A stretch of DNA of 64,000 nt from Methanobrevibacter millerae (GTDB lineage Archaea; Methanobacteriota; Methanobacteria; Methanobacteriales; Methanobacteriaceae). The position numbers and the translations under genes were made by a program. Positions 1 through 62,514 of the stretch are shown in pieces. How positions within the stretch are numbered: position 1 is the first letter of the stretch; each line of letters begins with the position of its first letter. The DNA is taken from NCBI RefSeq assembly GCF_900103415.1, contig NZ_FMXB01000004.1, forward strand, positions 1-64,000. The letters run 5' to 3'. Under the pieces are notes generated by a model that was not told the origin of the DNA, ran no database searches, and worked only from the letters and a program-made list of their open reading frames with translations.

Positions 1-382
1 TGTATTCTAAAGAAACATTGTCTTTTAGTATCATCCCATATATTGCTTGGCTGGTAGCAATATCTTTACGATTGATGGCTACAAAACCTACTGATGCGTA
101 AATTGAATATAGTAAGGAATTTTTAGGAATAATCCATGCACTGGAGTTATCTAATCCCCATTTTGTTATTGTTTTTTCTGTGTAATTAATATATTTTCCT
201 TGTGAGGTCATATCCTTAATACTTAAAAAAGGAATGTCTCCATCATAATAATCTGGATTAGAAGACTTTGGAGTTCCTCCTGCTTTACCTTCCTTAATTA
301 AATCACCCAACTTAACATTATCCCACTCATCATTAAATCCACTAAATCGTAATTTAGGTATTAATCTCTTTTTATTCATCAT
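1..382 (-). CDS. hsdS: Type I restriction specificity subunit HsdS, third copy (partial)
   Basis: This is the N-terminal ~127 residues of a third HsdS; the rest lies beyond the left window edge. Its first residues (MMNKKRLIPKLRF) match the start of the HsdS gene just upstream, after which the sequence diverges, as expected for a different target-recognition domain. Two ATG codons (382 and 379) follow an AGGTG ribosome binding site. HsdS subunits choose the DNA target of a type I methyltransferase/endonuclease. The gene sits 12 nt after the preceding hsdS and shares a 77-bp perfect repeat with it, so it could be an expressed third gene or a silent donor cassette. Its C-terminus cannot be judged here. 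Confidence 0.85.
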   Translation of the reverse strand, partial: MMNKKRLIPKLRFSGFNDEWDNVKLGDLIKEGKAGGTPKSSNPDYYDGDIPFLSIKDMTSQGKYINYTEKTITKWGLDNSSAWIIPKNSLLYSIYASVGFVAINRKDIATSQAIYGMILKDNVSLEY

Positions 383-420
383 AAACACCTGATTTTAAAC
401 AAACATTTGTTGGAGTAAAC
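344..420. repeat. 77-bp direct repeat, copy 1 (hsdS2/hsdS3 junction)
   Basis: This copy is identical to 1586-1662. It covers the last codons of hsdS2, the intergenic ribosome binding site and the first ~12 codons of hsdS3. The period between copies is 1242 bp, one hsdS gene length. Recombination between the copies would delete or duplicate one specificity gene. Confidence 0.95.
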
Positions 421-1624
421 TTTTCTTAAACATTGAAATTTTGGAATTTTGTTTTTTTATTGTATTTATTTTTAAATCTAAATCAGATAAGAAATCTGCA
501 ATTTTTTTCTGTTCTTCATATTGGGGTAAATTTATTTTAAATGATTCTATTTCCTTTTTACTAATATTCGGTTGAGCTCCAGCAACCAATGTTTTCTGTA
601 ATTCTCGTTTGAAAGAATTACTGAGAGTATATTGAACTAAAAAAGGATAATATAATTTTGGAGATGTCTTTTTAAACAATCCTACTCGTTGGTTTATGTA
701 TGATTCATGTTCTAAATCATAAACTGCGACTTTACCTGTTGTTGCTCCAGACATTGCAATAATAAGTTCACCTTTTTTAATAATGAAATCAGAATCATTG
801 TCTAGTTTGTCATAATATACTAAATCATCCAATATTACAGAATTATTTGAAGATATATTGGAAATTCTAACTATCGGCATTCCTTCTTCTTTAAAAAGTT
901 CACTTTTGAATGCATAACCCCCATTAAGTGAAATTATGTCTTTTAATTGTAATTGTTCCCAATTCTCACTAAAATTGCTATTCTCATCTTTAAATCTTAA
1001 TTTCTGTGCGAAAATCTGTTGGATCAGATATTTCTTGAAATCTACATATGCCTTGCATTTTTTTTCGAGTATTTCAATTTTATTATCAATTTTTAAAATA
1101 AAATTACTTATTTTCTGTTGTTCTTTAATTGAAGGTAAATTCACATTAATTTTTGATAAATCTCTCAAGGAAATTGATTCGTATGCAGTTACATTAATTC
1201 TTTTCTTAAAATCTTTAATAAAGATAGGAGTATTGAAATATGTTTCTAAAAAATAAGGATTTTCAGATGTTTTAATAATTGCAACACTACTCCTAAATGT
1301 ATATTCATTATTATAATCTTTTATAACCGCAGTTCTACATGTACTCCCAATTATTGTTAATAATACATCTCCATTTTCAATTTTATATTTTTTATGAAGT
1401 TTATTGTAATCTTCATGTGATATTTGTTGTGAATCATCACTTATATGTATTTTACCATTAAACACATCCTTAGAACTTAATAAATAAACTCCATCATCTA
1501 CAATTTTATGACTTGCATGAGTACCATCCTTAATTTTTGAAATGTCTGATAAACTTATACATTTCCATTCATCATCAAATCCAGCAAATCGTAATTTAGG
1601 TATTAATCTCTTTTTATTCATCAT
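395..1624 (-). CDS. hsdS: Type I restriction specificity subunit HsdS, second copy
   Basis: This is a specificity subunit of about 409 residues with the usual two target-recognition domains. Each domain ends in a conserved helix block (FKKYLIQQIFAQKLRF in the middle, FKKSLLQQMFV at the C-terminus). It would bind HsdM and read two half-sites of the DNA target. I chose ATG 1624 (or 1621). A GTG at 1630 is possible, but it lies inside the AGGTG ribosome binding site itself. The gene is 12 nt downstream of hsdS1 in the same operon. Its recognition domains differ from those of hsdS1 (different N-terminal sequence after PKLRF), so the two copies should direct different methylation. Confidence 0.93.
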   Translation of the reverse strand: MMNKKRLIPKLRFAGFDDEWKCISLSDISKIKDGTHASHKIVDDGVYLLSSKDVFNGKIHISDDSQQISHEDYNKLHKKYKIENGDVLLTIIGSTCRTAVIKDYNNEYTFRSSVAIIKTSENPYFLETYFNTPIFIKDFKKRINVTAYESISLRDLSKINVNLPSIKEQQKISNFILKIDNKIEILEKKCKAYVDFKKYLIQQIFAQKLRFKDENSNFSENWEQLQLKDIISLNGGYAFKSELFKEEGMPIVRISNISSNNSVILDDLVYYDKLDNDSDFIIKKGELIIAMSGATTGKVAVYDLEHESYINQRVGLFKKTSPKLYYPFLVQYTLSNSFKRELQKTLVAGAQPNISKKEIESFKINLPQYEEQKKIADFLSDLDLKINTIKKQNSKISMFKKSLLQQMFV

Positions 1625-1662
1625 AAACACCTGATTTTAAACAAACATTTGTTGGAGTAAAC
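1586..1662. repeat. 77-bp direct repeat, copy 2 (hsdS1/hsdS2 junction)
   Basis: This is the partner of 344-420, identical over 77 bases. It spans the last codons of hsdS1, the gap and the first codons of hsdS2. Such perfect identity beside divergent recognition domains points to recent duplication or ongoing gene conversion. Confidence 0.95.
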
Positions 1663-2863
1663 CTTTTTTAAATTCTTGCATATTTTTTAAATTATTATCA
1701 ATAGAAGAAATCTTATTATCTACACTAGACATTAAATTAACAATTTTTACTTGTTCTTCTTTTGAAGGATATTGTATTTTAAAATTTCTAATTTCTTTTA
1801 ATGCCAATTTTGGTTGGGCATTATTAGTTTGAACAGCTATAATTCTATTCTGAATCATTGTTGTATTTAAATAATATTGTAAATAATCAATGTTAATTTT
1901 GATTTCTGAGATCCTGTTCGCATTTTCAGTTAAATTAGCTTTATCTAAACACTTAGGGACTTTTTTTACCAAACCTAATGTTCCTGCAACAGATATTATT
2001 AAATCATTATAATCAACAATATAATTTTTTATTTGAGGATAGATTTCAGCTGGAACATATTGATATGTACTTAAATCTTCAAAATCATTATTCATATTAG
2101 AAACAGTTATGTAAGGATGATTATTTGGTTCATTAATCAATGAAGAACCTTTTGGCATTCTTTTACCACCAGTAACTTTGGAAATATCTTTTAATTTAAC
2201 ACTTAGCCATTCATCATCAAAATCAAATCTTAATTTCTGTGTGAAAATTTGTTGCATCAAATACTTTTTGAAATCTAAATATGACTGATATTGGTTTTCT
2301 AACAAATCAATTTTCTTATTAACAGTAATTAAAAATTTAGATAATTTTTCTTGTTCTTTTGTATTAGTAGGTAAAATGTGTTTGGTGTTAAAAAAATCAT
2401 TTACAGCAATATTTAACAAACCATGATTCCTAGCACCTTCAACAGCAATTTTATAAATCTCTTTATACCACTTATCTGTTTCAAAATATTCTTTTAACAA
2501 ATCAGAGTTCATTTTCTCATTAATTTTGAAACAAATATATAAGGTAGAGATTGCCCCATTTTCATAATTATCTAATCGTTTCACTGCCCCATATGGATAA
2601 CCATTAGAATAACTTTTATTATAAGCAAATTCTCCTTTATTCAACAAATAATAATTTATCAGACTATCACTTGCTACAATTTTATTAAAATATTCGATTT
2701 GATCTACTAAACCATATTGGGCAGAAATAGTCAATGGTCTATCAGTTTCTAATGATTTATTTTTTCTAGTGATTCTTTCAGAAATCTCATTTAATTTAAA
2801 AGATTTCCATTCTTCATTAAATCCACTAAATCGGAGTTTAGGCACTAATTTTTCATTTTCCAT
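1637..2863 (-). CDS. hsdS: Type I restriction specificity subunit HsdS, first copy
   Basis: This is a 408-residue specificity subunit directly downstream of hsdM (12-nt gap). It starts MENEKLVPKLRFSGF, has a central conserved block FKKYLMQQIFTQKLRF and ends FKKGLLQQMFV, so two recognition domains of about 180 residues can be placed. Being next to hsdM, it is the copy most likely to be translated best. The central block DNA (about 2226-2285) resembles that of hsdS2 (about 998-1050). That gives a second place where half-gene swaps by homologous recombination could occur. Confidence 0.94.
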   Translation of the reverse strand: MENEKLVPKLRFSGFNEEWKSFKLNEISERITRKNKSLETDRPLTISAQYGLVDQIEYFNKIVASDSLINYYLLNKGEFAYNKSYSNGYPYGAVKRLDNYENGAISTLYICFKINEKMNSDLLKEYFETDKWYKEIYKIAVEGARNHGLLNIAVNDFFNTKHILPTNTKEQEKLSKFLITVNKKIDLLENQYQSYLDFKKYLMQQIFTQKLRFDFDDEWLSVKLKDISKVTGGKRMPKGSSLINEPNNHPYITVSNMNNDFEDLSTYQYVPAEIYPQIKNYIVDYNDLIISVAGTLGLVKKVPKCLDKANLTENANRISEIKINIDYLQYYLNTTMIQNRIIAVQTNNAQPKLALKEIRNFKIQYPSKEEQVKIVNLMSSVDNKISSIDNNLKNMQEFKKGLLQQMFV

Positions 2864-2875
2864 AATAATCCATCT

Positions 2876-4408
2876 TTAAAATTTTGGTGTTCTAATACCT
2901 AATTCTTCACAGTATTTTTTGATTTCAGCATCTACTTCATCCATTTCTTTGGATATTCTTTCTAATTCATCACATACTTCATCTAAATCAACTGGTTCTT
3001 CTTCTTCAAAAGTATCGACATATCTAGGAATGTTTAAATTGAAATCGTTTTCTTCAATTTCTTCTAAACTTGCTTTATGTGAGTATTTTTCGATTTCTTC
3101 ACGATTAGCATAAGTATTAACAATTTTTTCAATGTCTTCTGCTCTTAATTTATTTTGGTTTTTAACTTTTTCAAAGTCTTTACTTGCATCTATGAATAAT
3201 ATGTCCTGATCATCTTCCCTGCATTTTTTAAAGATTAAAATACATGTTGGAATGGAAGTTCCATAAAATAGATTTGCAGGCAATCCTATTACTGCGTCTA
3301 AGTAATTTTTTTCTCCTACCAAATATTCACGGATTTTACCTTCTGCTGCTCCTCTGAATAATACTCCATGAGGCAACACAATTGCCATTGTTCCGCTTTC
3401 ATTTAATTGGTAAATCATATGTTGCACGAAAGCATAATCTGCTTTACTTTTAGGTGCTAATTTACCATAAGCGCTGAATCTACTGTCCATTTCCATTTCT
3501 TTGCTTGCACTCCATTTTGCAGAGAATGGAGGATTCGCAACTACAGCGTCAAATCTCATTTCTTTGTGTTGTGGGTCTTCTAATGTATCTCCTTGCTTTA
3601 TATCAAATTTATCATATTTGACTCCATGCAATATCATATTCATTCTAGCTAAGTTGAATGTTGTAGTGTTTAGTTCTTGTCCATAGTAGTTTGCTACTTT
3701 TGCTTCTTTTGAAATTCTTAATAGTAATGAACCTGAACCACAAGTAGGGTCATACACATTCTTTATTCTATCTTTTCCAAGTGTTACAACTTTAGCTAGA
3801 ATTTTTGATACCTCTTGTGGAGTATAAAATTCTCCCGCTTTTTTTCCTGCTTCAGATGCAAATTGGCTAATTAAATATTCATATGCATCTCCTAGAATGT
3901 CTGATTCTTCATTATCAAATTCAAAGTCAATATCATTTAATAATAACAATACATCAGATATTTTTTGGTTTTTATCTCCATCTTTTTTACCTAATTTTGT
4001 TGAATCTAAATCTACATCATCAAATAGGTTATCAAAATCATCTTCACTTTCATGTCCTTGTGAAGAATTAGTTATATCATTAAAAGCTTGTTTTAAATCA
4101 TTCCTGATGGTTTGATTAGTTTTACATTTTTCTATAATTGAGCTAAATAAATATTCTGGATTGATAAAGTAACCTAATGTATTTACACTATCTTCTTTAA
4201 GATCTTTTTTCCATTCTTCATCTTCACATGCTTCTTGGAATGTAACTTCATCTAGTTTCAATTCTTCATTTAGGTAGTTTTCTTGTTTTTCTGATAAATA
4301 ACGATAAAATATAAATCCTAAAATATAGTTTTTATATTCATTCGCATCCATATTTCCTCTTAATTCATCTGCAACTGCAAATAATTTTGTTTCCAAGTTT
4401 GTAACCAT
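2876..4408 (-). CDS. hsdM: Type I restriction-modification DNA methyltransferase HsdM
   Basis: This 510-residue N6-adenine methyltransferase subunit has an N-terminal HsdM helical domain and then the catalytic domain. GEFYTP lies near residues 192-197, the SAM-binding motif DPTCGSGS near 220-228 and the catalytic NPPF motif at 292-295. With HsdS it methylates the host target, and with HsdS and HsdR it forms the restriction complex. ATG 4408 is preceded by GGTGA. The gap to hsdR is 8 nt, so hsdR, hsdM and the hsdS genes read as one transcript. Length and motifs are those of an intact enzyme. Confidence 0.96.
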   Translation of the reverse strand: MVTNLETKLFAVADELRGNMDANEYKNYILGFIFYRYLSEKQENYLNEELKLDEVTFQEACEDEEWKKDLKEDSVNTLGYFINPEYLFSSIIEKCKTNQTIRNDLKQAFNDITNSSQGHESEDDFDNLFDDVDLDSTKLGKKDGDKNQKISDVLLLLNDIDFEFDNEESDILGDAYEYLISQFASEAGKKAGEFYTPQEVSKILAKVVTLGKDRIKNVYDPTCGSGSLLLRISKEAKVANYYGQELNTTTFNLARMNMILHGVKYDKFDIKQGDTLEDPQHKEMRFDAVVANPPFSAKWSASKEMEMDSRFSAYGKLAPKSKADYAFVQHMIYQLNESGTMAIVLPHGVLFRGAAEGKIREYLVGEKNYLDAVIGLPANLFYGTSIPTCILIFKKCREDDQDILFIDASKDFEKVKNQNKLRAEDIEKIVNTYANREEIEKYSHKASLEEIEENDFNLNIPRYVDTFEEEEPVDLDEVCDELERISKEMDEVDAEIKKYCEELGIRTPKF

Positions 4409-4416: not shown

Positions 4417-7209
4417 CTATTCAAAATTAAACATATCAAATATTGCTAAAATTTCATCTTTAACTTTTCTAATTTTTGCTTTCCTATCTTTATATTTCAA
4501 AGTTTTATCTTTAAATGCTTCTCTAATTAATTGTTCATCTAATTTTTCAGAAAATTCGTATTCACTTAATAAATCACGTGTAACCTCTTCTATTAATTCC
4601 TCCTCATCAATTAAATCACATATGGCTTGTCTTTTTTCATTTTGAATAAATGTATCGAATTCCTCTTTAATATTCAGACCTTTACCTCTTATGTGATTTA
4701 GTTCATAGTCCATGAATTTTTCCATTAATTTAATCTTACTTCTTAAATTAACGGTGTTTTCCATCATTTTAACAATTCTTTCTCTTTCTTTATCATAATT
4801 ATCTTTTATATTCATGTTTTCAAGTAATTCAAGAATATAATCTACATTAATCTTGTCATTTCTAAGCAGATCCAATTCAAAATCAATATCATCCAATATT
4901 GATATTCCTCCAGCACCATATCCTCCATCAGTGCCGGTTTCTTTTATATTTAAATAAGCTCCTGTGAAATCTTCATATTCCTGTTCATCAATGTTTAAAT
5001 CGTTAAAACTAAATTCTACAAATGTTTCTAATTTATTTTTTGTTTTAATAAGTTTTTTAAATGCTAATACAAAATCTTTCTTTTTACTTTCACTTTGAAG
5101 ATTATAAGCATCCTGAGCTGTTTGAACTAGCTCATATAATCTATCTAAATCCTCATTAAATCTTTTTACAAGGGCTTTGTAAGTTGGCAGAAGAATATCT
5201 TCTGATGGTGCATTATTTGAGAATAAAGCTATTGCTTCATCAACTTTTTCCTGAAGCGGCCTATAACATACAATATTCCCATGAGATTTACGAGGATTAC
5301 AGATTCTATTTGTTCTGGAAAATGCTTGTAACAATCCATGATATTCAAGGTTTTTATCGACATATAATGTATTTAGTAACTTACTGTCAAAACCAGTTAA
5401 AAACATGTTTATAACTAATAGTAAATCTATTTCACGATTTTTCATTCTTTTACATACGTCCCGATGGTATTCTCCCATAGTTTCTGTATCGAAGTTAGTT
5501 CCAAACATTTCATTGTAATCTACCATATATTCATCTAATAATTCTTGTGAATGCTTTTCCCTATCATCAAAATTCTCATTAGGTGCATATGTAAAGATTG
5601 TAGCTATTTTAAAATTTAAGTTCCTTTCTTTTATTTTTTCTTTAAATAATTTATAATAGTCGTGAATGAATCCTGTTGGATTATCTTTAGTTTTTTGAGA
5701 AACTGCAAAAATAGCATTAAATTCACTGTCTTTTGTTTTTACATTATAGCTATCCAAGATATGATCAACGATTAAATTTAATCTGTCTTTATGTGCATAA
5801 GCTTCATTAATTTTAATGGAGTGTACTTTCTCATCAATGACGCCCTCTTTAATTTTTAATGTGTTATAGTAATCTATTGAGAATCCTAACACATTATAAT
5901 CAGCTATTGCATCTTTAATCATATAAGTGTGTAATCTCTCACCGAATATTGTTTTAGTAGTCTTATGGCCCATTGCATTTTCTTCAAATATTGGAGTTCC
6001 TGTAAAACCATAAGATAAACTATTTTTAAAGAAATTACTTATATCTTGCTGCATTTTGCCAAATTGACTTCTATGACACTCGTCATAAATAAAAATGATA
6101 TTTTTATCTCTAATTTTTTCTAATTTTTTACTAGTATGTTTTCTATTTACTGCAATAGCTAATTTTTGGATGGTAGTTGTGATAAGTGGATTTTTATCAC
6201 TTAAAAGATTTTTAACTAATGCTCCAGTATGTTCCGATGTTCCAACACATTTAGGGCAGAATTTATTGAATTCCTTATTAGTTTGATCATTTAAGTCTCG
6301 TCTATCAACAACAAATATAACTTTATAAATAGAGGGTTCTTCAGCTAATAATTGGCTGACTTTGAAAGACGTTAATGTTTTACCACTACCAGTAGTGTGA
6401 TATACATATCCATTCTTTTTATTTTCTAATGCTTGAGTTAATACTGCATCTACAGCATATTTTTGATATGCTCTTAAAACCATGAGCTCTTTTGTGGATT
6501 CATTTAATACCATGAATTTAGAAATCATTTTAGCAATATTGCATTTCTCTAGAAAGTCTTCTGTAAATTCATTTAGTGGGTAAATGTTATTATTGTCTTT
6601 ATCTTTCCAATAGAATGTGTATCCGAAATCAACATCGTTAGGCCTACCATTAGCAAAATATTTTGTATATAATCCATTACTTACAATGAAGATTTGAATA
6701 TAACCAAATAAATTCTTATATGATGTTTTCATGTATCTTTTAACTTGATTAAAAGCTTCAGATATTGCTATTGACCTTCTTTTGAGTTCAACTTGAACCA
6801 ATGGCAATCCATTAATTAATATAGTAACATCATAACGGTTTTCATGTGTTCCTCTCATAGTAATTTGGTTAGATACTTGAAAGATATTTTTACACCAATC
6901 TTTTTGATTTAAAAATTTAATTGACACTGACATTTCATTGTCTCTTTTTATCGTGTATTCATCTCTTAGTTTGTCTGCTTTGTCGAATACTGAACCTGAA
7001 TCTAAATAAATGAGTATTCTTTCAAATTCATCATCAGTTAATGGTTTTCCATTGAGTTCTTTCTTATTTAATTTTTCTAATTGAATTTTAAAGTTTGCAT
7101 TCAATTCTTCTTCATTTTTTATTTTAATAAATTCATATCCCATTCCTTGAAGTTGTTTGATGAATTTATCTTCAAGCATTTTTTCACTTTCGACATCAAC
7201 TGGCATCAT
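4417..7209 (-). CDS. hsdR: Type I restriction endonuclease subunit HsdR
   Basis: This 930-residue restriction and translocation subunit carries an N-terminal PD-(D/E)xK nuclease site (D127, then E141-L-K143). A superfamily 2 helicase motor follows, with Walker A TGSGKT at 273-278 and Walker B DECH at 376-379. The C-terminal part is helical and would bind the methyltransferase core. The protein cleaves unmodified DNA after ATP-driven translocation. ATG 7209 is followed by a second ATG and preceded by AGGAG. It is the first gene of the operon, so the promoter should lie in the AT-rich 7210-7300 stretch. No frameshift is visible. Confidence 0.96.
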   Translation of the reverse strand: MMPVDVESEKMLEDKFIKQLQGMGYEFIKIKNEEELNANFKIQLEKLNKKELNGKPLTDDEFERILIYLDSGSVFDKADKLRDEYTIKRDNEMSVSIKFLNQKDWCKNIFQVSNQITMRGTHENRYDVTILINGLPLVQVELKRRSIAISEAFNQVKRYMKTSYKNLFGYIQIFIVSNGLYTKYFANGRPNDVDFGYTFYWKDKDNNNIYPLNEFTEDFLEKCNIAKMISKFMVLNESTKELMVLRAYQKYAVDAVLTQALENKKNGYVYHTTGSGKTLTSFKVSQLLAEEPSIYKVIFVVDRRDLNDQTNKEFNKFCPKCVGTSEHTGALVKNLLSDKNPLITTTIQKLAIAVNRKHTSKKLEKIRDKNIIFIYDECHRSQFGKMQQDISNFFKNSLSYGFTGTPIFEENAMGHKTTKTIFGERLHTYMIKDAIADYNVLGFSIDYYNTLKIKEGVIDEKVHSIKINEAYAHKDRLNLIVDHILDSYNVKTKDSEFNAIFAVSQKTKDNPTGFIHDYYKLFKEKIKERNLNFKIATIFTYAPNENFDDREKHSQELLDEYMVDYNEMFGTNFDTETMGEYHRDVCKRMKNREIDLLLVINMFLTGFDSKLLNTLYVDKNLEYHGLLQAFSRTNRICNPRKSHGNIVCYRPLQEKVDEAIALFSNNAPSEDILLPTYKALVKRFNEDLDRLYELVQTAQDAYNLQSESKKKDFVLAFKKLIKTKNKLETFVEFSFNDLNIDEQEYEDFTGAYLNIKETGTDGGYGAGGISILDDIDFELDLLRNDKINVDYILELLENMNIKDNYDKERERIVKMMENTVNLRSKIKLMEKFMDYELNHIRGKGLNIKEEFDTFIQNEKRQAICDLIDEEELIEEVTRDLLSEYEFSEKLDEQLIREAFKDKTLKYKDRKAKIRKVKDEILAIFDMFNFE

Positions 7210-43105: not shown

Positions 43106-46100
43106 ATGAAGAAAAAAATATTGATTTTGGCACTGTTAATCTTCATCGCCTCAATCGGATGCGCATCAGCCGCAGAAGACGCTGACGCATTATCCTTAGA
43201 GGACACGGATGAAGTATTGACCGCAGATCCCGGCACTTTCAATGACCTTCAGGAGATTATTGATAATGCCGAGCTATACGAAACGATTGAACTGGATACC
43301 GATTATTACGGTAACGGCACTGAAATTGCGATTGTAAACAAGACCATTACTATTCAGGGTAACGGTCATATTCTTAATGCAAGTTGTGATGACGAATTGA
43401 AATACAGCAGAATATTTAATATAGACGAAAACAGTGAAGTGCACATATACAACCTCAACTTTACCGGAGGATTTGACAACATCCAGGGCGGCGCAATCTT
43501 AAACAAAGGCACACTCTTCCTGACCGGCTGTACATTCATGTACAATGCAGGCTATTACGGCGGCGCAATCTACAACACTGGTTCTCTCTATATGGATTAT
43601 ACCTCCTTTAACATAAACCATGCGGACAGCGGAGGAGCAATATATACAAGAGGCGAAACGTATATGGAAAACACCATATTTAACATGAACTCTGCGGAGT
43701 ACTCAGGCGGAGCGGTTCACTGTGTGAACGGGAAAACTGAAATGGCTTACTGTCAGTTTTTTAACAACACCGCTGACGTTTACGCAAGTGCCGTTCAGGG
43801 AGGAAATATCCTAAGCATTGTCTCTTCATCCTTTATAAGCTTTAACGATGACGTTGAGTTTGTTGACTATTACAACAAGGAAGAAATGGAAGGCGCATAC
43901 CTTAATCTGAATAACAACGGCATGTATTCCCTGGCCCCATATCCTATCGTATATGACAACTGGAACCCGATAAACTCCCAGGTTACCCTTGAATTCTTTG
44001 ATAGTGAATGTGAACAGGGAGATGCCGTAGAGATTGCAATCATGTACGATAACATGGATAATGCCATTCTCTTCAACAGGAACTTTACAGTGAAAATATA
44101 CAACGGAAGCGAACTTGTCGATGAAGTCAATCTGACTTACGATGAGGTTCTGGAAGGATATTACTATTACTGCAATTTGGAAAACGGCACATACACCATA
44201 AACGGAACAATCTCAAAACAGTATGCAAAGAAAGTAACGGTCATTGACGGCGAACTCGTTGTCGGCGGCTCAAGTCCGAAAATAACTCCGAACGTCACGA
44301 CGACCTGCAACACCTTCGGGGACTGCGTTACCTTAACCGCCACCCTCGAACCGAGTGACGCAACAGGAATCGTATCATTCTACATCGGAGAAGACCACTA
44401 CGATCCGGAAATTGACGACGGAAAGGCATCATACACTGTACCTGGCCTTGCAGACGGAACATACACGGTTAAAACCGTATATCGCGGTGATGAAAACTAC
44501 AATCACGCTAACGCTAAAGACGTGAACTTCACCATCAATTCAACCGCAAACAGAACCGCTTCAAGCGCTGTAACGACTTATGTTAAAGACAGCAGCACCG
44601 TCGTTACATTAACGACCACTATAACTCCTTCTGATGCAACCGGAACTGTAACGTATCTCTTAAACGGCGAGGAATACAATCCTGTAACTGTAACTGACGG
44701 AAAGGCAACCAAAAAGTTAAGCGGTCTTCCTGACGGAACATATACCGTTGAAGCCTTATACAGCGGTGACGGAAGCTATTATCCTTCAAACGCAACCCCG
44801 GTCAATTTCACTATCTCTACAACGGGCCTTGTCATTGACGCTCCTCCGTTAGTCAAATACTACGGAGGCTCCGAAAGGTTTACGGTTACATTAACCGAGG
44901 ACGGATTGCCTTTAGCCAACAAGACCGTTACAATCAACCTCAACGGAAAGGATTATGAAAGAACTACTGACAGTTCAGGAATAGCCCGCATGAACGTCAA
45001 CTTAAACAGCGGAGTATATCCTGTAACTGTTACTGCCGAAGGCCAGAGCGTAAATACGACAGTTACAGTTAAGGCTACCGTTTCAGGTGAAAACGTAACA
45101 AAGATATTCAGAAACGGCACACAGTACTACGCCACTTTCGTCGACTCAACCGGCAAAACTTTAGCCAACAACACTGGAGTCGAGTTCAACATCAACGGTG
45201 TTTTCTATACCAGATACACCAATGAAAATGGCGTTGCAAGGATGAACATTAATTTAAATCCTGGCGAATATATTATAACAGCTAAAAACCCTAAAACCGG
45301 CGAGATGTACACTAATCTCATTACAGTTTTAACAAATATCGTCGAGAACAATGACCTGGTAAAGTACTACAAGAACGATTCACAGTACAGAATCAGGATT
45401 CTTGCAGATGACGGAAGCATTGCAGGCGAAGGCGTTAAAGTCACATTCAACATCAACGGAGTCTTCTACGACAGATACTCAGATAATGAAGGATATGTCC
45501 AGCTTAAAATCAACCTGAACCCTGGCGAATACATCATTACGGCCGACTACAACGGACTGATGGCGTCAAACAACATTACGGTTTTAAACGTCCTGTTTGG
45601 CCATAACCTTGATATGGAATACAGGGACGGCTCAAAATACACCGTACTGCTTCTTGACGGACAGGGCAATCCTTACTCCAACCAGACAATTGAGATCAAC
45701 ATCAACGGAGTATTCTATTATAAGGTAACCAACGAAAGCGGAATTGCAGCACTTAACATCAACCTTGATCCCGCTTCATACATCGCCACGGCAACTTACA
45801 ACGGATTGAGCTGTTCAAATATAGTCAACGTTGCAAAGGAAGGTATGGTTGAATATGATTTAAAAATTATAAAAATATCACTTCCTAAATCCGCCACCAT
45901 CGAAATTACCGAGAACAAAACGGATTACCTGGTATATAGCGTAAACTATCGCGGAGACATATATAAGCTGACCATTGACGGCGAACACACCTCTGCAGAG
46001 TATAAGAATCTCATCTTATCCGAGGGCGGAACCGATTGTGGAACATATCACGGATGGAAAGCCGTAGAAAAAATCTATGACTATTTCCTGTTTACTGATT

Positions 46101-46177
46101 TTATGAAAACATGCATCGGTTTCGACGGTGCAGACCCAAGCTTCGTCAGAAGCACTGTGGATGCAATCAAGTTTTAA
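43106..46177 (+). CDS. Adhesin-like surface protein 1 (1023 aa)
   Basis: It opens with signal peptide KKKILILALLIFIASIGCAS. Residues ~40-290 form a right-handed beta-helix with polymorphic-protein-type GGAIY...N repeats. Residues ~391-571 hold two Big_3-like Ig domains (PSDATGTV...DGTYTV). Residues ~575-911 hold four ~85-residue fibre repeats marked by FNINGVFY and INLNPGEYIITA. Residues ~913-1023 match the small secreted proteins upstream. No membrane anchor or transglutaminase-like domain is visible, so how it is held on the pseudomurein wall is unknown. Proposed role by family: attachment to other microbes or surfaces. Confidence 0.85.
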   Translation: MKKKILILALLIFIASIGCASAAEDADALSLEDTDEVLTADPGTFNDLQEIIDNAELYETIELDTDYYGNGTEIAIVNKTITIQGNGHILNASCDDELKYSRIFNIDENSEVHIYNLNFTGGFDNIQGGAILNKGTLFLTGCTFMYNAGYYGGAIYNTGSLYMDYTSFNINHADSGGAIYTRGETYMENTIFNMNSAEYSGGAVHCVNGKTEMAYCQFFNNTADVYASAVQGGNILSIVSSSFISFNDDVEFVDYYNKEEMEGAYLNLNNNGMYSLAPYPIVYDNWNPINSQVTLEFFDSECEQGDAVEIAIMYDNMDNAILFNRNFTVKIYNGSELVDEVNLTYDEVLEGYYYYCNLENGTYTINGTISKQYAKKVTVIDGELVVGGSSPKITPNVTTTCNTFGDCVTLTATLEPSDATGIVSFYIGEDHYDPEIDDGKASYTVPGLADGTYTVKTVYRGDENYNHANAKDVNFTINSTANRTASSAVTTYVKDSSTVVTLTTTITPSDATGTVTYLLNGEEYNPVTVTDGKATKKLSGLPDGTYTVEALYSGDGSYYPSNATPVNFTISTTGLVIDAPPLVKYYGGSERFTVTLTEDGLPLANKTVTINLNGKDYERTTDSSGIARMNVNLNSGVYPVTVTAEGQSVNTTVTVKATVSGENVTKIFRNGTQYYATFVDSTGKTLANNTGVEFNINGVFYTRYTNENGVARMNINLNPGEYIITAKNPKTGEMYTNLITVLTNIVENNDLVKYYKNDSQYRIRILADDGSIAGEGVKVTFNINGVFYDRYSDNEGYVQLKINLNPGEYIITADYNGLMASNNITVLNVLFGHNLDMEYRDGSKYTVLLLDGQGNPYSNQTIEININGVFYYKVTNESGIAALNINLDPASYIATATYNGLSCSNIVNVAKEGMVEYDLKIIKISLPKSATIEITENKTDYLVYSVNYRGDIYKLTIDGEHTSAEYKNLILSEGGTDCGTYHGWKAVEKIYDYFLFTDFMKTCIGFDGADPSFVRSTVDAIKF

Positions 46178-46183
46178 ACGCTA

Positions 46184-46210
46184 AAATCCCCTTTCAATTC
46201 AAGGGGATTT
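46184..46210 (+). terminator. Terminator after adhesin 1
   Basis: AAATCCCCTT at 46184-46193 pairs perfectly with AAGGGGATTT at 46201-46210 over a 7-nt loop; T-rich sequence follows (46217-46225). Nearly the same hairpin follows adhesin 2. Confidence 0.75.
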
Positions 46211-46263
46211 CATTTACTTTTTTTAGAATTGAACATAATTTAAATAAATTTTTTAAACGCCAA

Positions 46264-46330
46264 ATGAAATTAACCCAATCCGGAAAATATCTAAATCAAC
46301 TGAAACGATTCAGCAAATTATATATGTAAA
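46264..46330 (+). promoter_or_regulatory. Shared surface-gene promoter, copy 3
   Basis: TTAACCCAATCCGGAAAATA leads to GATTCAGCAAATTATATATG, which parallels 41511-41570. TATA lies about 46315-46326. ATG 46494 is ~168 nt downstream, implying a ~145-nt leader. The leader begins like that of copy 2 (GAGGTTTTATT after a GTATTGAT/GTGTTTGT element). Confidence 0.5.
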
Positions 46331-46493
46331 TTTTCATAAATATTAAATCATGTATTGATGAGGTTTTATTCATTAATCTTTAAATTCGAAAGAATTTGAA
46401 AAAATAGGTTTTTGAAACAGGCTCTCAATATCAGCTATAGCTCCATTTAAGGGAGATGTGGCTTTTCAATATTATAAAAGGATTTGATTTAAA

Positions 46494-49400
46494 ATGAAAA
46501 AGAAAATATTGATTTTAGCCTTGTTAATATTCATTGTTTCAATGGGATGCGCATCAGCGGCTGAGGATAACTCAACCGACGCATTAACCCTGGATGATTC
46601 AAGTGAAGTATTGACAAGTGAATATGGAGGAAATTTCGGCGAATTAGCAGATTTGATTGAAAACGCCGATGAAGGAGACACGATTACCTTAAAGAAAGAT
46701 TATAACGGCAGCGGTTCAATTACAATAGGTAAGGGATTGGTCATTGACGGTGCCGGACATTCCATCAATGCAAATTTTGAAAGCAGAATATTCCTTGTAG
46801 ATTCTGAAAGCGAAGTATTAATAACGAACACGATATTCTCGAATGGATTTGATGAGTATGAAGGCGGTGCAATCTATGCTTATAGCCCACTCTACATATA
46901 TAATTGTGAATTCTACTATAACGGAGCTTATGATATGGAGGAATACAGTTATGGTGGTGCAATCTATGCCTGTGATGAACTGGGAATATTAAACTCCTAT
47001 TTTGAAGGAAACTTTGCAACAATGGGTGGAGCAATATATTCAGAAAATTACCTGATTATAAACAATACGGGATTTTTGAATAATTATGCAAACTCAGGCG
47101 GTGGAGCAATATCAGGTCTTTATTCAAATATGATAATCAATGCTTCCGGATTTGAAAACAACACTGCAGAAGGTTATGGCGGAAGCATTTTTGCCGGGCA
47201 GATACTGCAATTGACCAATTCATTTTTCATAAGCGGAGAGGATGAAGTAGACATTATCGATTATTATAATTATGATGAAGCTGACGATAGCATTTACCTC
47301 TATCTGGAAAACAATACAATGTACACTCCATATGCATACAGCATATGGTATGAAAGCTTGAACAGAATACTTTCTCCGGTTAACCTGGCATTTACGAAAG
47401 ATGAAGCTGAAAATGGCGATGTTATAGAAATTGCAAGGGTAATGGACGATATGGGAAACATCATCCGTTATGATTATGACGTTACAATGGAAATATATGA
47501 TGGAAATACCCTTGTCGATACAGTCGAATTGGAATATGACATGGATAATAAGGGATATTACTATGAATGCGATTTGGATAACGGCACCTACACCCTGACC
47601 GGAAGTCTTTCAAGCGATTATGTAGCCAAAATAAACGTTTATGAAGGACAACTGGTTGTCGGCAGCACAAGCGAAAAAACGGCAACGACACTTAGTGCTG
47701 CATATACATTAAATGGAAATTCAGTCACCCTAACAGCCACGGTTGCTCCTTCAGATGCAACAGGAACCGTAACCTTCAGCATCGCAGGCAATGATTACAC
47801 CGCAAAAGTAAATAAAGGAAAGGCAACAAAAACCTTAAGCAACCTTGAAGACGGCTCATACACCGTCAAGACTTCATACGGTGGTGACGACAATTACAAA
47901 GCATCCGTCGCAAAGACTATCAGCTTTACGGTTTCCACATCCTCATCCTCAGAAATTACCATAGATGCCCCTGAACTGACCAAGTACTACAGGGATTCAG
48001 ATAAATTTGTCGTAACGCTGAAAGAGGATGGAGTTCCGTTAAGCGGAGAAACGGTTACAATCATCATCAACAACGTTTACTATGACAGAACCACCAACAC
48101 CCAAGGTCAGGCAAGCATGTCAGTTAACCTGGCTCCAGGCGTTTATCCGGTAACTGTCAAGGCCGAAGGAGAGCAGACGACTTCAAAAATCACTGTCCTT
48201 AAAGCAACGCCTAAAGTCACAGCAGCATATGACCTGAACGGAAATTCCGTTACCTTAACTGCCGAACTCAATGCAACATCCGCAACGGGAACTGTAAGCT
48301 TCAACGTAAACAACAAAAACTACGATGCGGATATTGAAAACGGAAAGGCAACAAAAACCTTAAGCAACCTTGCAGACGGCTCATACACAGTCAAGACAAC
48401 ATACAGCGGTGACGAAAACTACAACTCAGCAAACGCAAAGCAAATCAGCTTTACAGTCGGCGGCACTCCAGGAGAAAAAACAACACCGAGCGTTACAGCA
48501 AGCTATGAGCAAAATCAAAACAGCGTTACGCTGACCGCAGAGCTTGATCCGTCAGATGCATCAGGAACCGTAACCTTTAACGTAAACAACAGAAATTACA
48601 ATGCAGAGGTTACAAACGGAAAGGCAACAAGAACCTTAAACAAACTTGCAGACGGCTCATACACCGTCAAGACATCATACAGCGGTGACGAAAATTACAA
48701 CTCAGCAAACGCAAAAGAGATTTCATTTACAATAGGCACGCCGGCAGAAAAAACAACTCCAACTGTTACAACTTCATATACTAAAGACAGCAGCACTGTC
48801 GTTACATTGACAACTACCGTTTCCCCTTCAGACGCAACGGGAACAGTAACATATATCATCAACGGCGAGGAATACAATCCTGTAGCGGTAACCAACGGAA
48901 AGGCAACCAAAAGATTAAGCGGCCTTGAAGACGGCTCATACACCGTCAAGACATCATACAGCGGCGATAATAATTACAACTCAGCAAACGCAAAACAGGT
49001 CAGTTTTGTTATCGCTTCAACCGGAGTCAATATAGATGCGCCTGAACTGGTCAAATACTACGGCGGCTCCGAAAGGTTTACGGTAACATTAACCGAAAAC
49101 GGCGAGCCTTTATCCGGCAAAACCGTTAAAATTACAATCAACGGACAGACTTATGAAAGGACTACCGACAGTTCAGGAAAAGCCGGCATGAACGTCAACC
49201 TGAACAGTAAGGAATACCCTGTAACTGTTGAAGCCGAAGGCCAAAAGGTCTCATCAAAAGTTACGGTCAAGCCAACCGTTTCAGGAAATGACATTACAAA
49301 GATATTCAAAAATGGAACACAGTACTACGCAACATTCGTCGACACTCAGGGCAATCTATTGAGAAATACTGACGTTAATTTCAACATCAACGGAGTATTC

Positions 49401-50408
49401 TACACCAGAAAAACGGATGGAAACGGCGTTGCAAGGATGAACATCAACCTGAATCCTCAAACTTATGTCATAACAGCCAAAAATCCGGTTACCGGTGAAC
49501 AGTACACAAATACGATTACCGTTTTAACGAATATCATCGAGCACAATGACTTAACCAAGTACTACAAGAACGATTCACAGTACAGAATCAGGATACTTGC
49601 AGATGACGGAAGCATTGCAAAGGCAGGCGTTAAAGTCACTTTCAACATCAACGGAGTATTCTACGACAGGTATTCAGATGACAACGGATACGTCCAGATG
49701 AGAATCAACCTCAATCCGGGCGACTACATCATCACGGCCGACTACAACGGACTGAAGGCTTCAAACAACATTAAAGTGCTGAACATCTTATTCGGTAACA
49801 ACGTCAACATGGAATACAAGGACGGCTCAAAATACACCGTTAAACTGCTTGACGGTCATGGAAATCCTTATTCCGGACAGACAGTTGACTTAAACATCAA
49901 CGGAGTATTCTACAAAAGGGTAACCGGTTCTGATGGAGTGGCAAGCCTCAACATCAATCTGGAAGGCGGATCATACGTCATTACTGCCTCATACAACGGG
50001 TTAAGCTGTTCAAATACAGTTAACGTTGTCGTGCCTATGTCAGACTATGAGGTGGGAAATTACCACTTCAGCGTTCCGAAATCATGCAATGTCAAAGGTC
50101 GCCTAAGCGATGACCGTACATCATATACATACACTATTGACTATACAAACGGCCAGCACGCCGGTGTATCTTTCCAATATGCAACATCATCACCTCTCAG
50201 CTACAGTATAAATGCTGTTAAATCCGAGTATGGAGGTCAGGAAATTGCACCGTATAACGGATGGGTCGTTTTGGACTTCTACAATGCAGTGCGTCAAGGC
50301 TACTTAGACGATAGATACTATGCATTTTCCGATGACGGAACTTATTACTATCACATACACTCTAATGATTTAGGCCTTTGCCAGCAGATTATAAGTTCGT
50401 TCCATTAA
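46494..50408 (+). CDS. Adhesin-like surface protein 2 (1304 aa)
   Basis: It has the same signal peptide type and beta-helix (about residues 40-300) as adhesin 1. The stalk is longer: one Ig-like domain (396-480), one fibre repeat (488-568), three further Big_3-like domains (571-840; GSYTVKTSYSGDENYNSANA recurs), four fibre repeats (846-1179) and the small secreted-type domain (1181-1304). The extra Ig domains are near-copies of one another at DNA level, pointing to stalk lengthening by recombination. It is exported and surface-exposed. The ligand is unknown. Confidence 0.85.
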   Translation: MKKKILILALLIFIVSMGCASAAEDNSTDALTLDDSSEVLTSEYGGNFGELADLIENADEGDTITLKKDYNGSGSITIGKGLVIDGAGHSINANFESRIFLVDSESEVLITNTIFSNGFDEYEGGAIYAYSPLYIYNCEFYYNGAYDMEEYSYGGAIYACDELGILNSYFEGNFATMGGAIYSENYLIINNTGFLNNYANSGGGAISGLYSNMIINASGFENNTAEGYGGSIFAGQILQLTNSFFISGEDEVDIIDYYNYDEADDSIYLYLENNTMYTPYAYSIWYESLNRILSPVNLAFTKDEAENGDVIEIARVMDDMGNIIRYDYDVTMEIYDGNTLVDTVELEYDMDNKGYYYECDLDNGTYTLTGSLSSDYVAKINVYEGQLVVGSTSEKTATTLSAAYTLNGNSVTLTATVAPSDATGTVTFSIAGNDYTAKVNKGKATKTLSNLEDGSYTVKTSYGGDDNYKASVAKTISFTVSTSSSSEITIDAPELTKYYRDSDKFVVTLKEDGVPLSGETVTIIINNVYYDRTTNTQGQASMSVNLAPGVYPVTVKAEGEQTTSKITVLKATPKVTAAYDLNGNSVTLTAELNATSATGTVSFNVNNKNYDADIENGKATKTLSNLADGSYTVKTTYSGDENYNSANAKQISFTVGGTPGEKTTPSVTASYEQNQNSVTLTAELDPSDASGTVTFNVNNRNYNAEVTNGKATRTLNKLADGSYTVKTSYSGDENYNSANAKEISFTIGTPAEKTTPTVTTSYTKDSSTVVTLTTTVSPSDATGTVTYIINGEEYNPVAVTNGKATKRLSGLEDGSYTVKTSYSGDNNYNSANAKQVSFVIASTGVNIDAPELVKYYGGSERFTVTLTENGEPLSGKTVKITINGQTYERTTDSSGKAGMNVNLNSKEYPVTVEAEGQKVSSKVTVKPTVSGNDITKIFKNGTQYYATFVDTQGNLLRNTDVNFNINGVFYTRKTDGNGVARMNINLNPQTYVITAKNPVTGEQYTNTITVLTNIIEHNDLTKYYKNDSQYRIRILADDGSIAKAGVKVTFNINGVFYDRYSDDNGYVQMRINLNPGDYIITADYNGLKASNNIKVLNILFGNNVNMEYKDGSKYTVKLLDGHGNPYSGQTVDLNINGVFYKRVTGSDGVASLNINLEGGSYVITASYNGLSCSNTVNVVVPMSDYEVGNYHFSVPKSCNVKGRLSDDRTSYTYTIDYTNGQHAGVSFQYATSSPLSYSINAVKSEYGGQEIAPYNGWVVLDFYNAVRQGYLDDRYYAFSDDGTYYYHIHSNDLGLCQQIISSFH

Positions 50409-50422
50409 AAAACATTTAAAAA

Positions 50423-50460
50423 AATCCCCTTTATTCAAGGGGATTGACTTTACTTTTTTT
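50423..50460 (+). terminator. Terminator after adhesin 2
   Basis: AATCCCCTT at 50423-50431 pairs with AAGGGGATT at 50437-50445, and T8 at 50453-50460. It is a close copy of the hairpin after adhesin 1. Confidence 0.75.
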
Positions 50461-50545
50461 AATTACCACATAAAGTTTTCAATCAATCATCAGAAAAATA
50501 ACCTTTAATATCCATTCAAAACATATAATCAATCAAGGTGATTCA

Positions 50546-53329
50546 ATGAAAAGACTAATTATTTTACTTTCATTTCTCATGTTGATATCATTGAGCTGCG
50601 TATCGGCAGCGGATGACGTGAATGAAACATTGGAAATTAATGAGCAGGACTTATTGACAGCTGATGCGGGAACATTTCAAGCGCTTCAAGCAAAAATCAA
50701 TCAGGCTCCTGCAGGCTCAACGATCAATCTGGAAAACGATTACGTCTACAGCAATGATGTTAATCCCCTATACGGAATCTCAATCGGTAAGCAAATAACG
50801 ATTAACGGTAACGGCCACACCATTGACGGCCTTCATACCTCACAGATATTTAATATCAAGACGGAAAGCCTTGTAACGTTCAATAATATCCGATTCGTTA
50901 ACGGCCAGGCTCACTGGCACGGCGGCGCAATCGGCATAGGAGACATATTGAGTTACGGAAACATCAGAGTCGACAACTGCTATTTCATCGACAACAATGC
51001 AGAGGTTGGCGGCGGAGGCTTTGACGTTTATCATGCAGATGTAAGCAATTCCCATTTCATAAGCAATCATGCGGAACAGGGCGGTGCATTTCAGTGCTCA
51101 AACGGCGCCAATATTGTTAACTGCGAATTCAAGGATAATTCCGCTGAAATTATGGGCGGAGCAGTCTACATATTGGGCGGCTATGAATGGGATGTGCCGG
51201 CAGCTTCCACTATAAGGAATTCAAGATTCATCAATAACCATGCCGAAAGCAGCGGAGCGGCAGCCCTTTACTGTAAAGCAACAATTGCGGACTGTGAATT
51301 CAGTGACAATTACGCAGATACCTTCGGTGCCGGAGCATTATATATCGAAGATGGAAGCATCCTGAAGTGCAATTTCACGGGTAATCATGCTCCGCAGAAT
51401 GGAGGTGCAGTATGCTTCAGCTCCGACGGTACAGGTGAAATACGCAGCTGCAGCTTCAACGGCAATCATGTAAATGACGCGGGAGGAGCTGTTTACGGAA
51501 ACTTTGAAGGCTATCGTCTTGAAATCCGTGACTGCAATTTCACGGCCAATCATGCGGAATTGGAAGGAGGTGCAGTTTACGGTTCATGGAATATATTCAA
51601 CTCCAATTTCAACGCAAATACTGCTGATTACTATGGCGGTGCAGTTTGCGGCTACGGGGATATATATGACTGCGTTTTCAACTCCAACAGTGCCAAAGAA
51701 AATGGAGGTGCAATTTCTTCTGCATTAACTGTTTCAAATTCCAAATTCACAGACAACAGCGTTACGGATAAAGACAGCTATGGGGCAGCAATATCCGGTG
51801 CTGAAAGCGTTGAAAAGTGTGAATTCACAGACAATAAAGGTCCAAACGTCGTTTCCAGTGCCGCTTCAGTGTGCGGAAATGTCTTTAAAAGCTCTGCAAA
51901 CAGCGATGAATTCATTTACGGAACGCCTGAAATGACTTTAAAGAACAATAAGATGACTTCAAACAACAGGTATGACATTAAAATCGATTGCTTTGAGACA
52001 CAGACAATGGCTTTTGATTTGAATCTTGTTTTCGAAAACAGGACTGTAGCGCCCAATTCGACAATAGAGTTATGCCAGTTTCAGGATGACTCACAAAACA
52101 AGATTGTCTTTGAACCTGAAATGGAAATAAAGGTAAAACTGACAAACCAGGATACGAAAGCCACCGAAGACATTACCCTATATTATGACAGTGAACTGTC
52201 AGGCTATTACTACAAATGCGAACTCGAGGAAGGCACATATGACGTAACGGGCAGTGCAGAGATTAACAATTATCATATACTGAACGGCGTTCTGGTTGTT
52301 GACGGAGATACCAACTATACGTTAACCGCCAATGATTTAACCAAGTATTATCACGGACCTGAACGCTTCGGCGTAACCGTAACAAACACAAAGGGCAGAC
52401 TGATTGCAGGAATTCCGGTTCAAATAAATGTAAACGGCCAGACATATACAAGAACAACCGATTCCAGGGGTGTTGCGTCAATGGCAATCAACCTGAACAG
52501 CGGAACCTATCCGGTAAGGAGTGAATGCGGCGAGGCCAAAGCAAACGCAACGATAACCGTTTTGAAAACGATTTCGGGCGATAATATTGTGAAAATATTC
52601 AGAAACGGCACCCAGTATTATGCCACATTCATTGACACTCAAGGAAATCCATTGAAAAACACCGACGTTGAGTTCAACATCAACGGAGTATTCTACAAAA
52701 GGCCTACAAATGACAGAGGCGTTGCAAGGATGAACATCAACCTGAATCCGGGCGAATACATCATAACGGCTAAAAACCCTTCAAATGGCGAGCAATATAC
52801 CAATATCATTACTGTTTTAACTTCAATTGTTGAAAACAATGATTTAACCAAGTATTATAAAAACGCTTCACAGTACAAGGTCAGGATACTTGCAGATGAC
52901 GCAAGCTACGCCAAAGCGGGTGTTAAAGTAACATTCAACATCAACGGAGTATTCTATGAGAGATACTCGGACGATGACGGCTACGTCAAGATGAACATAA
53001 ACCTGGAACCGGGCGAATACATCATAACGGCCGATTACAACGGCCTAAGGGCGTCAAATAAGATTACTGTAAAGTCCGTTATAAAAACTGAAAATCTGGT
53101 GATGTCATACAGGGACGGATCCAGATTCAACGCCACAATTTTAGATGGTCAGGGAAATCCCTACCCGAACCAGACTGTGACCTTTAACATCAACGGAGTA
53201 TTCTATGAAAAGATAACCGATGAAAATGGAGTTGCAGGCCTAGCCATCAACTTAATGGCCGGCGAATACATAATAACATCCAGCTACAACGGCATGAACG
53301 CCGCAAACAAGGTAACAATTTCAGGTTAA
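50546..53329 (+). CDS. Adhesin-like surface protein 3 (927 aa)
   Basis: The signal peptide is MKRLIILLSFLMLISLSCVS...A. A long beta-helix occupies about residues 36-468, with many GGAVY/N(F/S).N.A rungs. A strand-rich domain (470-588, ending YDVTGSAEINNYHILNGVLV) follows, then four fibre repeats (589-927) ending NGMNAANKVTISG. Unlike adhesins 1 and 2 it has no Ig (Big_3) domains and no small C-terminal module. Its upstream 50 bp (AACATATAATCAATCAAGGT and the start region) are repeated before adhesin 4. GGTGA precedes the ATG. Confidence 0.85.
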   Translation: MKRLIILLSFLMLISLSCVSAADDVNETLEINEQDLLTADAGTFQALQAKINQAPAGSTINLENDYVYSNDVNPLYGISIGKQITINGNGHTIDGLHTSQIFNIKTESLVTFNNIRFVNGQAHWHGGAIGIGDILSYGNIRVDNCYFIDNNAEVGGGGFDVYHADVSNSHFISNHAEQGGAFQCSNGANIVNCEFKDNSAEIMGGAVYILGGYEWDVPAASTIRNSRFINNHAESSGAAALYCKATIADCEFSDNYADTFGAGALYIEDGSILKCNFTGNHAPQNGGAVCFSSDGTGEIRSCSFNGNHVNDAGGAVYGNFEGYRLEIRDCNFTANHAELEGGAVYGSWNIFNSNFNANTADYYGGAVCGYGDIYDCVFNSNSAKENGGAISSALTVSNSKFTDNSVTDKDSYGAAISGAESVEKCEFTDNKGPNVVSSAASVCGNVFKSSANSDEFIYGTPEMTLKNNKMTSNNRYDIKIDCFETQTMAFDLNLVFENRTVAPNSTIELCQFQDDSQNKIVFEPEMEIKVKLTNQDTKATEDITLYYDSELSGYYYKCELEEGTYDVTGSAEINNYHILNGVLVVDGDTNYTLTANDLTKYYHGPERFGVTVTNTKGRLIAGIPVQINVNGQTYTRTTDSRGVASMAINLNSGTYPVRSECGEAKANATITVLKTISGDNIVKIFRNGTQYYATFIDTQGNPLKNTDVEFNINGVFYKRPTNDRGVARMNINLNPGEYIITAKNPSNGEQYTNIITVLTSIVENNDLTKYYKNASQYKVRILADDASYAKAGVKVTFNINGVFYERYSDDDGYVKMNINLEPGEYIITADYNGLRASNKITVKSVIKTENLVMSYRDGSRFNATILDGQGNPYPNQTVTFNINGVFYEKITDENGVAGLAINLMAGEYIITSSYNGMNAANKVTISG

Positions 53330-53385
53330 ATGGGTTCGGATACCCTTTTAACCGCACTTATTTTTTTTAACCGTAAAGCCTGTTT

Positions 53386-53435
53386 TTATGTGAAACGTTC
53401 TTGTAAAAGCTTTTTTTCTTACAAACCCCACATAA
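53386..53435. other. Nested hairpin between adhesins 3 and 4
   Basis: Outer arms TTATGTG (53386-53392) and CACATAA (53429-53435) and inner arms TTGTAA (53401-53406) and TTACAA (53419-53424) give a two-stage stem around a T-rich loop. It may be a terminator or RNA-processing element. ATATAGACATTAAGCAAAAA follows at about 53455, matching the tail of the palindromes at 56425 and 56672. Confidence 0.4.
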
Positions 53436-53526
53436 GTAAAATTAAATAGAAATGATATAGACATTAAGCAAAAACCGAATAACATTTAATATTCATGCAA
53501 AACATATAATCAATCAAGGTGATTTA

Positions 53527-56043: not shown

Positions 56044-56424
56044 ATGGGTTTTGATACCTTTTTAACCGGACTTATTTTTTTTAACCGTAAAGCTTATTAA
56101 TCATGTATTAGTGAGGACAATTCTTAGGAGTGAGCTCAACAAGCTATAAATACTTCTTAAATTAAAGATATTATCTCAATAGAACCAAGAAAAGGCTACC
56201 TTACAGAAAAAAGATTGGCATTTCCTCCTCAATCTAAAGAGGTCGAGATATCCTTGCCAAAAATAAGATGATATACTTTAAAAAGAAAATCATATTTCTT
56301 CACGGGGGCTTTTTTGCTTAGAGGAACACTACTCAATTGCCTATTTAAAAAAAAAGATTAGATTTAAATAAAAGATAATGTAAATAATATTACAGAGGAT
56401 AAAAACCTCATGTGGAAGAAGATT
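56044..56424. other. Noncoding stretch with hairpins downstream of adhesin 4
   Basis: A terminator-like tract copied from adhesin 3 occupies ~56046-56090. TTGGCA (56215-56220) pairs with TGCCAA (56255-56260), enclosing a CCTC/GAGG stem. TTAGTGAGGACAATT at 56108-56122 recurs inverted at the right end of the window (14 nt, 63987-64000). No open frame is credible. Confidence 0.5.
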
Positions 56425-56473
56425 TAATGTCTAACAAGATTATTGCGGGTTTTCCCGCAATATAGACATTAAC
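56425..56473. repeat. Bulged palindrome, copy 1
   Basis: Outer arms AATGTCTA / TAGACATT (56426-56433, 56463-56470) and inner arms TATTGCGGG / CCCGCAATA (56441-56449, 56454-56462) form a stem with a 7-nt one-sided bulge and a TTTT loop. ACC follows. It is closely matched by 56672-56720. Confidence 0.85.
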
Positions 56474-56549
56474 CAAAAACTGATTTTCAAAAACACCAAA
56501 TCATCAGCATAATTAAACTTAAATATAATGCTTATCTAAATTAACAAAT

Positions 56550-56668: not shown

Positions 56669-56671
56669 ATT

Positions 56672-56720: not shown

Positions 56721-56761
56721 CGAAACTACTTTTATATACCTTACTTGACAAATAATCAATC

Positions 56762-62455: not shown

Positions 62456-62514
62456 TTCTTTCACTCCCAAATACAATAGTTAATAACACACTAATGGTGA
62501 TGAATTTTACGAGC

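Follow-up and report, generated by a model that had tools for sequence, protein, structure and literature searches.

A tandem hsdS array, possibly orphaned of its integrase, in a type I restriction-modification operon of Methanobrevibacter

Introduction

In the parts of the literature considered here, the phase-variable type I restriction-modification (RM) systems are bacterial. This paper describes an operon of an archaeon in which one hsdM gene is followed by tandem hsdS specificity genes (S1, S2, and a half-size S3) at the start of a 64,000-nucleotide stretch of DNA, called the window (bases 1-64000 of contig C4 in a Methanobrevibacter genome of 2.72 Mb and 48 contigs). The comparisons that follow refer to the portions of each report considered. 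SpnIV, or tvr, of Streptococcus pneumoniae (PMC6265443) resembles the window in having direct repeats among its hsdS segments, with excision of a circle possible, but it carries its own recombinase, TvrR, and regulators, and the segments that move are the size of a target recognition domain (TRD), not of a whole gene. Type I systems that invert, such as SpnIII (PMC7394358), likewise combine several hsdS genes with one hsdM and exchange TRDs; they have inverted repeats and a recombinase, whereas the repeats flanking an hsdS segment in the window are direct. No inverted hsdS copy of the SpnIII kind lies at the locus, where the three S genes are on the same strand. As for a locus recombinase like those of SpnIII or tvr, no relative of the integrase found at related Methanobrevibacter arrays (the family integrase) is present in the first 24 kb of contig C10, onto which the array continues, other recombinase families not having been searched. 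BlihIA of Bacillus licheniformis (PMC12429846) also pairs a full hsdS with a one-TRD half hsdS within a single system, but it has two S genes, not three, and no rearrangement was detected, in an E. coli host. The hsdRSMS operon of Staphylococcus (PMC10030836) is likewise a multi-S operon; the short S there comes before hsdM and, it is argued, has no part in target recognition, whereas S3 of the window carries a Methylase_S domain.

As regards archaea, the part considered of an archaeal RM survey (PMC10609329) mentions neither Methanobrevibacter nor such arrays, that of an inversion survey (PMC5903667) gives none in 6 archaeal datasets, and the titles or abstract openings of the literature found describe no hsdS arrays in Methanobrevibacter or archaea. 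With somewhat more belief than doubt, the window array is read here as an integrase-orphaned hsdS array that would now change slowly by homologous recombination and would probably be co-expressed as a multi-S operon.

The hsdS array and its operon

The gene order is hsdR-hsdM-hsdS1-hsdS2-half-hsdS3, all on the minus strand. Matches over the Pfam cut-off were obtained for hsdR (4417-7209; 930 amino acids [aa], with an EcoR124-like C-terminal domain; HSDR_N and EcoR124_C), hsdM (2876-4408; 510 aa; HsdM_N and N6_Mtase), hsdS1 (1637-2863; 408 aa; Methylase_S), and hsdS2 (395-1624; about 409 aa from the ATG at 1624; Methylase_S), which places the HsdR, HsdM, and HsdS subunits of a type I system together in one locus. 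S1 is the hsdM-proximal gene, S2 is the unit between the two copies of a 77-bp repeat, and both have two TRDs. These are the only complete hsdS genes within the window. The third (1-382, minus strand, start ATG at 382) is cut by the contig end and continues on C10 to base 530.

The first 291 bases of C10 are the exact reverse complement of window positions 1-291, a sequence found at only these two places in the genome. The joined hsdS3 stays in frame across the join, finishes with a C-terminal end of ordinary appearance, and encodes 206 aa with one TRD and a single Methylase_S domain (C10:3-527). It is thus well supported, via the contig overlap, that hsdS3 is a half-size HsdS, and the three specificity genes of the original prediction become two full genes and a half one. 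An assembly artefact, in which S3 would not be half-size or C4 and C10 would not be neighbors, agrees with the breaking of contigs at S3, but in view of the exact two-place overlap and the preserved frame it is considered very improbable.

The central conserved blocks of S1 (2225-2359) and S2 (992-1126), both on the minus strand and containing TTAAGATTT, are 76% identical to each other, while the five recognition halves share 27-30% identity among themselves; the earlier description of conserved central blocks and divergent recognition domains stands, the conservation being limited to that 76%. The gaps hsdM-S1, S1-S2, and S2-S3 are 12 nt each, taking the S2 and S3 starts at ATG 1624 and 382, and a ribosome-binding-like AGGTG lies ahead of the S2 and S3 start codons, inside the 77-bp repeat. 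Because each S gene has its own start codon 12 nt after the previous gene, co-expression is probably the rule rather than one-at-a-time switching. S1, S2, and S3 would then compete for HsdM and HsdR, giving several specificities at once, and half-size S3 would be expected to act as a homodimer.

hsdS loci across Methanobrevibacter

Relatives of the window hsdM were taken at E <= 1e-140 from 67 genomes of the genus and were present in 13, the window's own genome being included in both numbers. The orthologues in the genus are 70-87% identical to it, plus one at 53%; the six named relatives at 71-86% identity belong to Methanobrevibacter metagenome-assembled genomes (MAGs) in five cases and to an archaeal MAG in one. 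The S genes were surveyed using a profile built from the family's own halves, by which distant S genes may be missed, and bacterial rows were left out of the counts.

Eight multi-S loci were counted, the window included, and six of them have an integrase. The array in genome G035 consists of three full S genes, a half S, an inverted S, and an integrase; that in G041 has two S genes, a half S, an inverted S, and a broken integrase; and that in G010 reads S, S, half S, integrase in the same direction throughout. Integrase-bearing hsdS arrays are also present in G006:C31 and G011, and G038 has, on a contig that stops short of any hsdM, three start-less S cassettes and an integrase. The remaining two are G019, in which inverted cassettes are followed by a contig end before any integrase could be seen, and the window. 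The family integrase is a tyrosine recombinase, as judged from the Phage_integrase domain on the copy on contig C2 of the window's genome. The earlier remark that the copies lack an integrase thus holds at the window locus, within the 24 kb of C10, but not for the family.

Several loci were left out of the eight: L057 (an archaeal MAG with 75% hsdM identity and a short inverted S, the contig ending about 0.25 kb further on and no integrase seen), L060 (one S and an integrase fragment at a contig end), and G004 and G044 (in which hsdM and the integrase lie on separate contigs and no S was seen). L055, L056, L058, and L059 are repeats of G002, G035, G041, and G019. The arrays as counted do not include the short S-like open reading frames (ORFs) that precede hsdM or hsdR in several relatives; these have about 184 aa, stand before hsdM in L046, L048, L049, and L054 and before hsdR in L055, and resemble the short S of hsdRSMS operons as given in the part of that report considered (PMC10030836).

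The integrase-bearing arrays resemble the window in their orthologous hsdRM genes wherever hsdM is on the contig (it was not seen in G038) and in repeated hsdS genes with a CGATTT start motif and a TTAAGATTT center, with half-size S genes in several. The half-size S stands ahead of the recombinase in G035, G041, G010, and G038, an order that the full S, full S, half S of the window matches. They differ from the window in having the tyrosine recombinase (broken in G041) and start-less or inverted cassettes, and their motif cores agree within a locus (one exception, G041), whereas those of the window disagree. The window array has neither an integrase relative in cis within 24 kb of C10 nor start-less silent cassettes, and because six of eight multi-S loci have the integrase, it looks like a remnant that lost it. 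The operon would accordingly belong by descent with the integrase-driven cassette arrays of the genus.

The TRD halves reassort between species of the genus. The second halves of S2 and of the sole hsdS found at the G026 locus are 84% identical, their first halves only 32%. Position changes occur as well: the first half of S1 matches a second half from an S gene of G006:C31 at 60% identity, and a G035 second half matches a G010 first half at 77%. One second half recurs at 90-93% identity in G035, G019, and G011, and one first half at 75-79% in G035, G006:C31, and G010.

A candidate crossover motif

The S halves of the family begin at an LRF motif. In the window, its N-terminal copies lie on the minus strand at 2828-2836 in S1 (CTCCGATTT), 1586-1594 in S2, and 344-352 in S3 (both TTACGATTT). 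The N-terminal motif was found at the protein level, and its DNA reads CGATTT in 25/26 sites, including all three S genes of the window; with five further sites, most added via the motif search itself and so not independent, the count is 30/31. The single LRF start motif of L057, TTACGATTT, is outside both counts. The central motif is TTAAGATTT in 17/17. CGA makes up 4.3% of the 509 Arg codons in 28 window genes, and in a control on 13 hsdM orthologues, 10 invariant Arg columns gave a mean majority-codon share of 0.73, with one column uniform and CGA the majority in none.

In start-less cassettes, unrelated bases upstream give way to common sequence from the motif onward. The Leu codon of the motif agrees in 27/32 within-locus pairs (0/20,000 shuffles as high), and 6/8 multi-copy loci are fully uniform in it, a result also reached in 0/20,000 shuffles. 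These patterns suggest a crossover core that coincides with the motif or lies inside it. The window codon is CTC at S1 and TTA at S2 and S3, so that the core is not identical among the copies, and by the motif rule, S1 would not pair with S2 or S3.

The 77-bp repeat

The two repeat copies, at 1586-1662 (S1 end, gap, S2 start) and 344-420 (S2 end, gap, S3 start), run on the minus strand out of the final codons of one S gene, across its stop and the gap, and past the next start as far as CGATTT, where they end. As originally described, they are identical with a period of 1,242 bp, and the match is maximal, with no extension on either side. Identity drops to 11/20 just upstream, a sharp edge, and is partial for about 20 bases downstream before falling to background; the ungapped flanks are 58% identical over 130 bp. 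In 200,000 simulations at 85% identity over 200 bp, exact runs of at least 77 appeared with a frequency of 7.5e-5, and the repeat is well beyond chance. The start of S1 does not carry it, showing instead an alignable stretch of 62-66 bp with 77-79% identity to the starts of S2 and S3. In each of six related arrays, the longest exact repeat falls between 23 and 47 bp, versus 77 bp in this one. No match covering the full length was found at E <= 1e-4 in the other 66 genomes of the genus, where partial matches span 22-44 of the 77 bases and mostly concern the end-of-gene part. Since the exact repeat thus exceeds chance, the repeats of related arrays, and any full match elsewhere in the genus, the junction was homogenized or duplicated recently in this genome.

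The repeat bears on whether the genes are plain static paralogues, that is, products of tandem duplication and later TRD replacement whose junctions are alike by chance conversion and in which recombination has no continuing role. A single S without an integrase, the state of the closest relatives, would suit such a history, and the 77 bp hold start and stop regions under some constraint, the end-of-gene part recurring at 93-100% identity over 22-29 bases in other genomes of the genus. The identity of the copies nevertheless extends to synonymous and intergenic bases and has a sharp upstream edge, and reassortment occurs across the family; static paralogues are judged improbable.

Homologous recombination between the repeat copies would drop or duplicate S2, giving S1-S3 or S1-S2-S2-S3, and would probably be slow. 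A less likely event would be recombination between the 76%-identical central blocks, yielding a chimera of S1-TRD1 and S2-TRD2 followed by S3. The original prediction that one whole gene could be deleted or duplicated is therefore retained for S2 only. Its corollary, a change of the hsdM-proximal hsdS, fails, because both repeats lie downstream of S1, which stays proximal in every product.

If such recombination changed S2 copy number often enough to diversify clonal populations, the array would be an active phase-variable switch. The exact repeat, which exceeds in length those of all six compared arrays, points that way, as do the assembly break inside S3 and the contig ends of the family. 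Among 13 contigs (G011, a single contig, and G036, with S before hsdM, being left out), contigs end within 1 kb of hsdM in 5/13 cases downstream and 0/13 upstream, with 0.49 expected and a simulated probability of 2.5e-5; at a second threshold of 3.2 kb the numbers are 7 and 2, with 1.58 expected. Two contigs of G006 share a 99-bp end overlap inside the central block. The contig-end pattern fits repetitive or variable S regions without telling them apart. Against a switch, its output would be the presence or dosage of S2, the proximal gene being unchanged, and the locus has no integrase relative in cis. The break in S3 is not specific to variation, since among contigs 1-40 two more contig-end overlaps of about 300 bp (309 and 295 bp) fall at a transposase-like gene and at a repeated Cas6-like gene, both named by eye from their translations; the break was accordingly rejected as proof of population variation. 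In this one genome assembly, no second arrangement was seen, the 8 Methylase_S matches all lying on C2, C4, and C10. An active switch is therefore thought unlikely.

The integrase of contig C2

The sole copy of the family integrase in the genome is intact and lies on C2, at a different type I locus with inverted hsdS. It could drive the window array in trans by acting at TTACGA, the site that S2 and S3 have in common, and excising S2 as a circle. The integrase is 66-70% identical to those of the orthologous arrays, S2 and S3 have a common core, and the form TAAA-N6-TTTAG, also present at the start of the inverted C2 hsdS, occurs within the 64-kb window only at S1 and S3. That arm pattern, however, was recognized post hoc; the S2 site does not follow it, its left arm is not preserved in start-less cassettes, and it occurs 5 times in a 4.1-kb C2 stretch, mostly away from hsdS starts. 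Loci with an integrase at least 89% identical to the C2 type carry another sequence, AAATTTGAGTTTA, common to 9/11 of them. A 13-base C2 sequence was found in window positions 1-2900 at one place with two mismatches (the S1 start) and nowhere with fewer, and the window has no excess of a 14-base form of the C2 site over chance (5 versus 4.45 expected). Excision by the C2 integrase in trans is hardly to be expected on this evidence, and the 77-bp repeat was rejected as its site save as a weak rival.

A broader proposal combines these elements: widespread shuffling of hsdS cassettes in Methanobrevibacter, with the crossover core in the Leu-Arg codons of KLRF (YTNCGA for the start motif and TTAAGA for the central one) and the window as an orphan array in which only S2 lies between matching cores and could be excised in trans by the C2 integrase. 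Taken as a whole, it is judged improbable.

As a separate observation, the second type I locus (L010, contig C2, 3467-8750), with its integrase and inverted hsdS, has a 26-bp palindrome, TAAACTCAAATTTAAATTTGAGTTTA, at the inverted hsdS start.

Weight of the orphan-array reading

Several points weigh against an integrase-orphaned, slowly recombining array. The closest orthologous loci, in G026 (hsdM 87% identical) and G066 (86%), have one S each and no integrase, and because of this the array may instead have been duplicated in a locus that never had an integrase; its loss is deduced from pattern. The exact 77-bp identity implies recent exchange, and recombination could be faster than slow. Shared descent of cassettes can also give the within-locus agreement of motif codons, the adjacency of C4 and C10 is based on overlap rather than reads, and the C2 integrase might act in trans.

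The window and its relatives form a natural series, from a single S without an integrase through an orphan tandem array to a full integrase array. The candidate crossover motif, hidden in codons, is testable. As these are gut methanogens, the locus bears on how restriction against viruses may vary.

Neighboring genes and other observations

On C10, hsdS3 is followed by an ORF for an N6-methyltransferase (694 aa), a second half-size S (231 aa), and a DUF1802 protein. In L009 (contig C10), positions 541-3996, the methyltransferase frame is open upstream of the first ATG, with no ordinary start codon noticed there, and the half-size S and DUF1802 genes come next. At E <= 1e-60, none of the other 66 genus genomes holds a relative of the methyltransferase, which was rejected on this ground as a part of the array and looks like a separate insertion.

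Many G000 contig ends share about 300 bp at about 99% identity, a repeated element of the genome. Window positions 44660-57440 and 62380-63300 contain many long exact direct repeats of up to 80 bp, perhaps from repeated domains in large proteins. About 6.7 kb from the end of hsdS3, an ORF of 1,259 aa on the minus strand (L009, contig C10, 7215-10994) resembles RNA polymerase subunit A' with a long C-terminal extension, and a second A'-like ORF lies on contig C3 (L246:1-2124), both as judged by eye.

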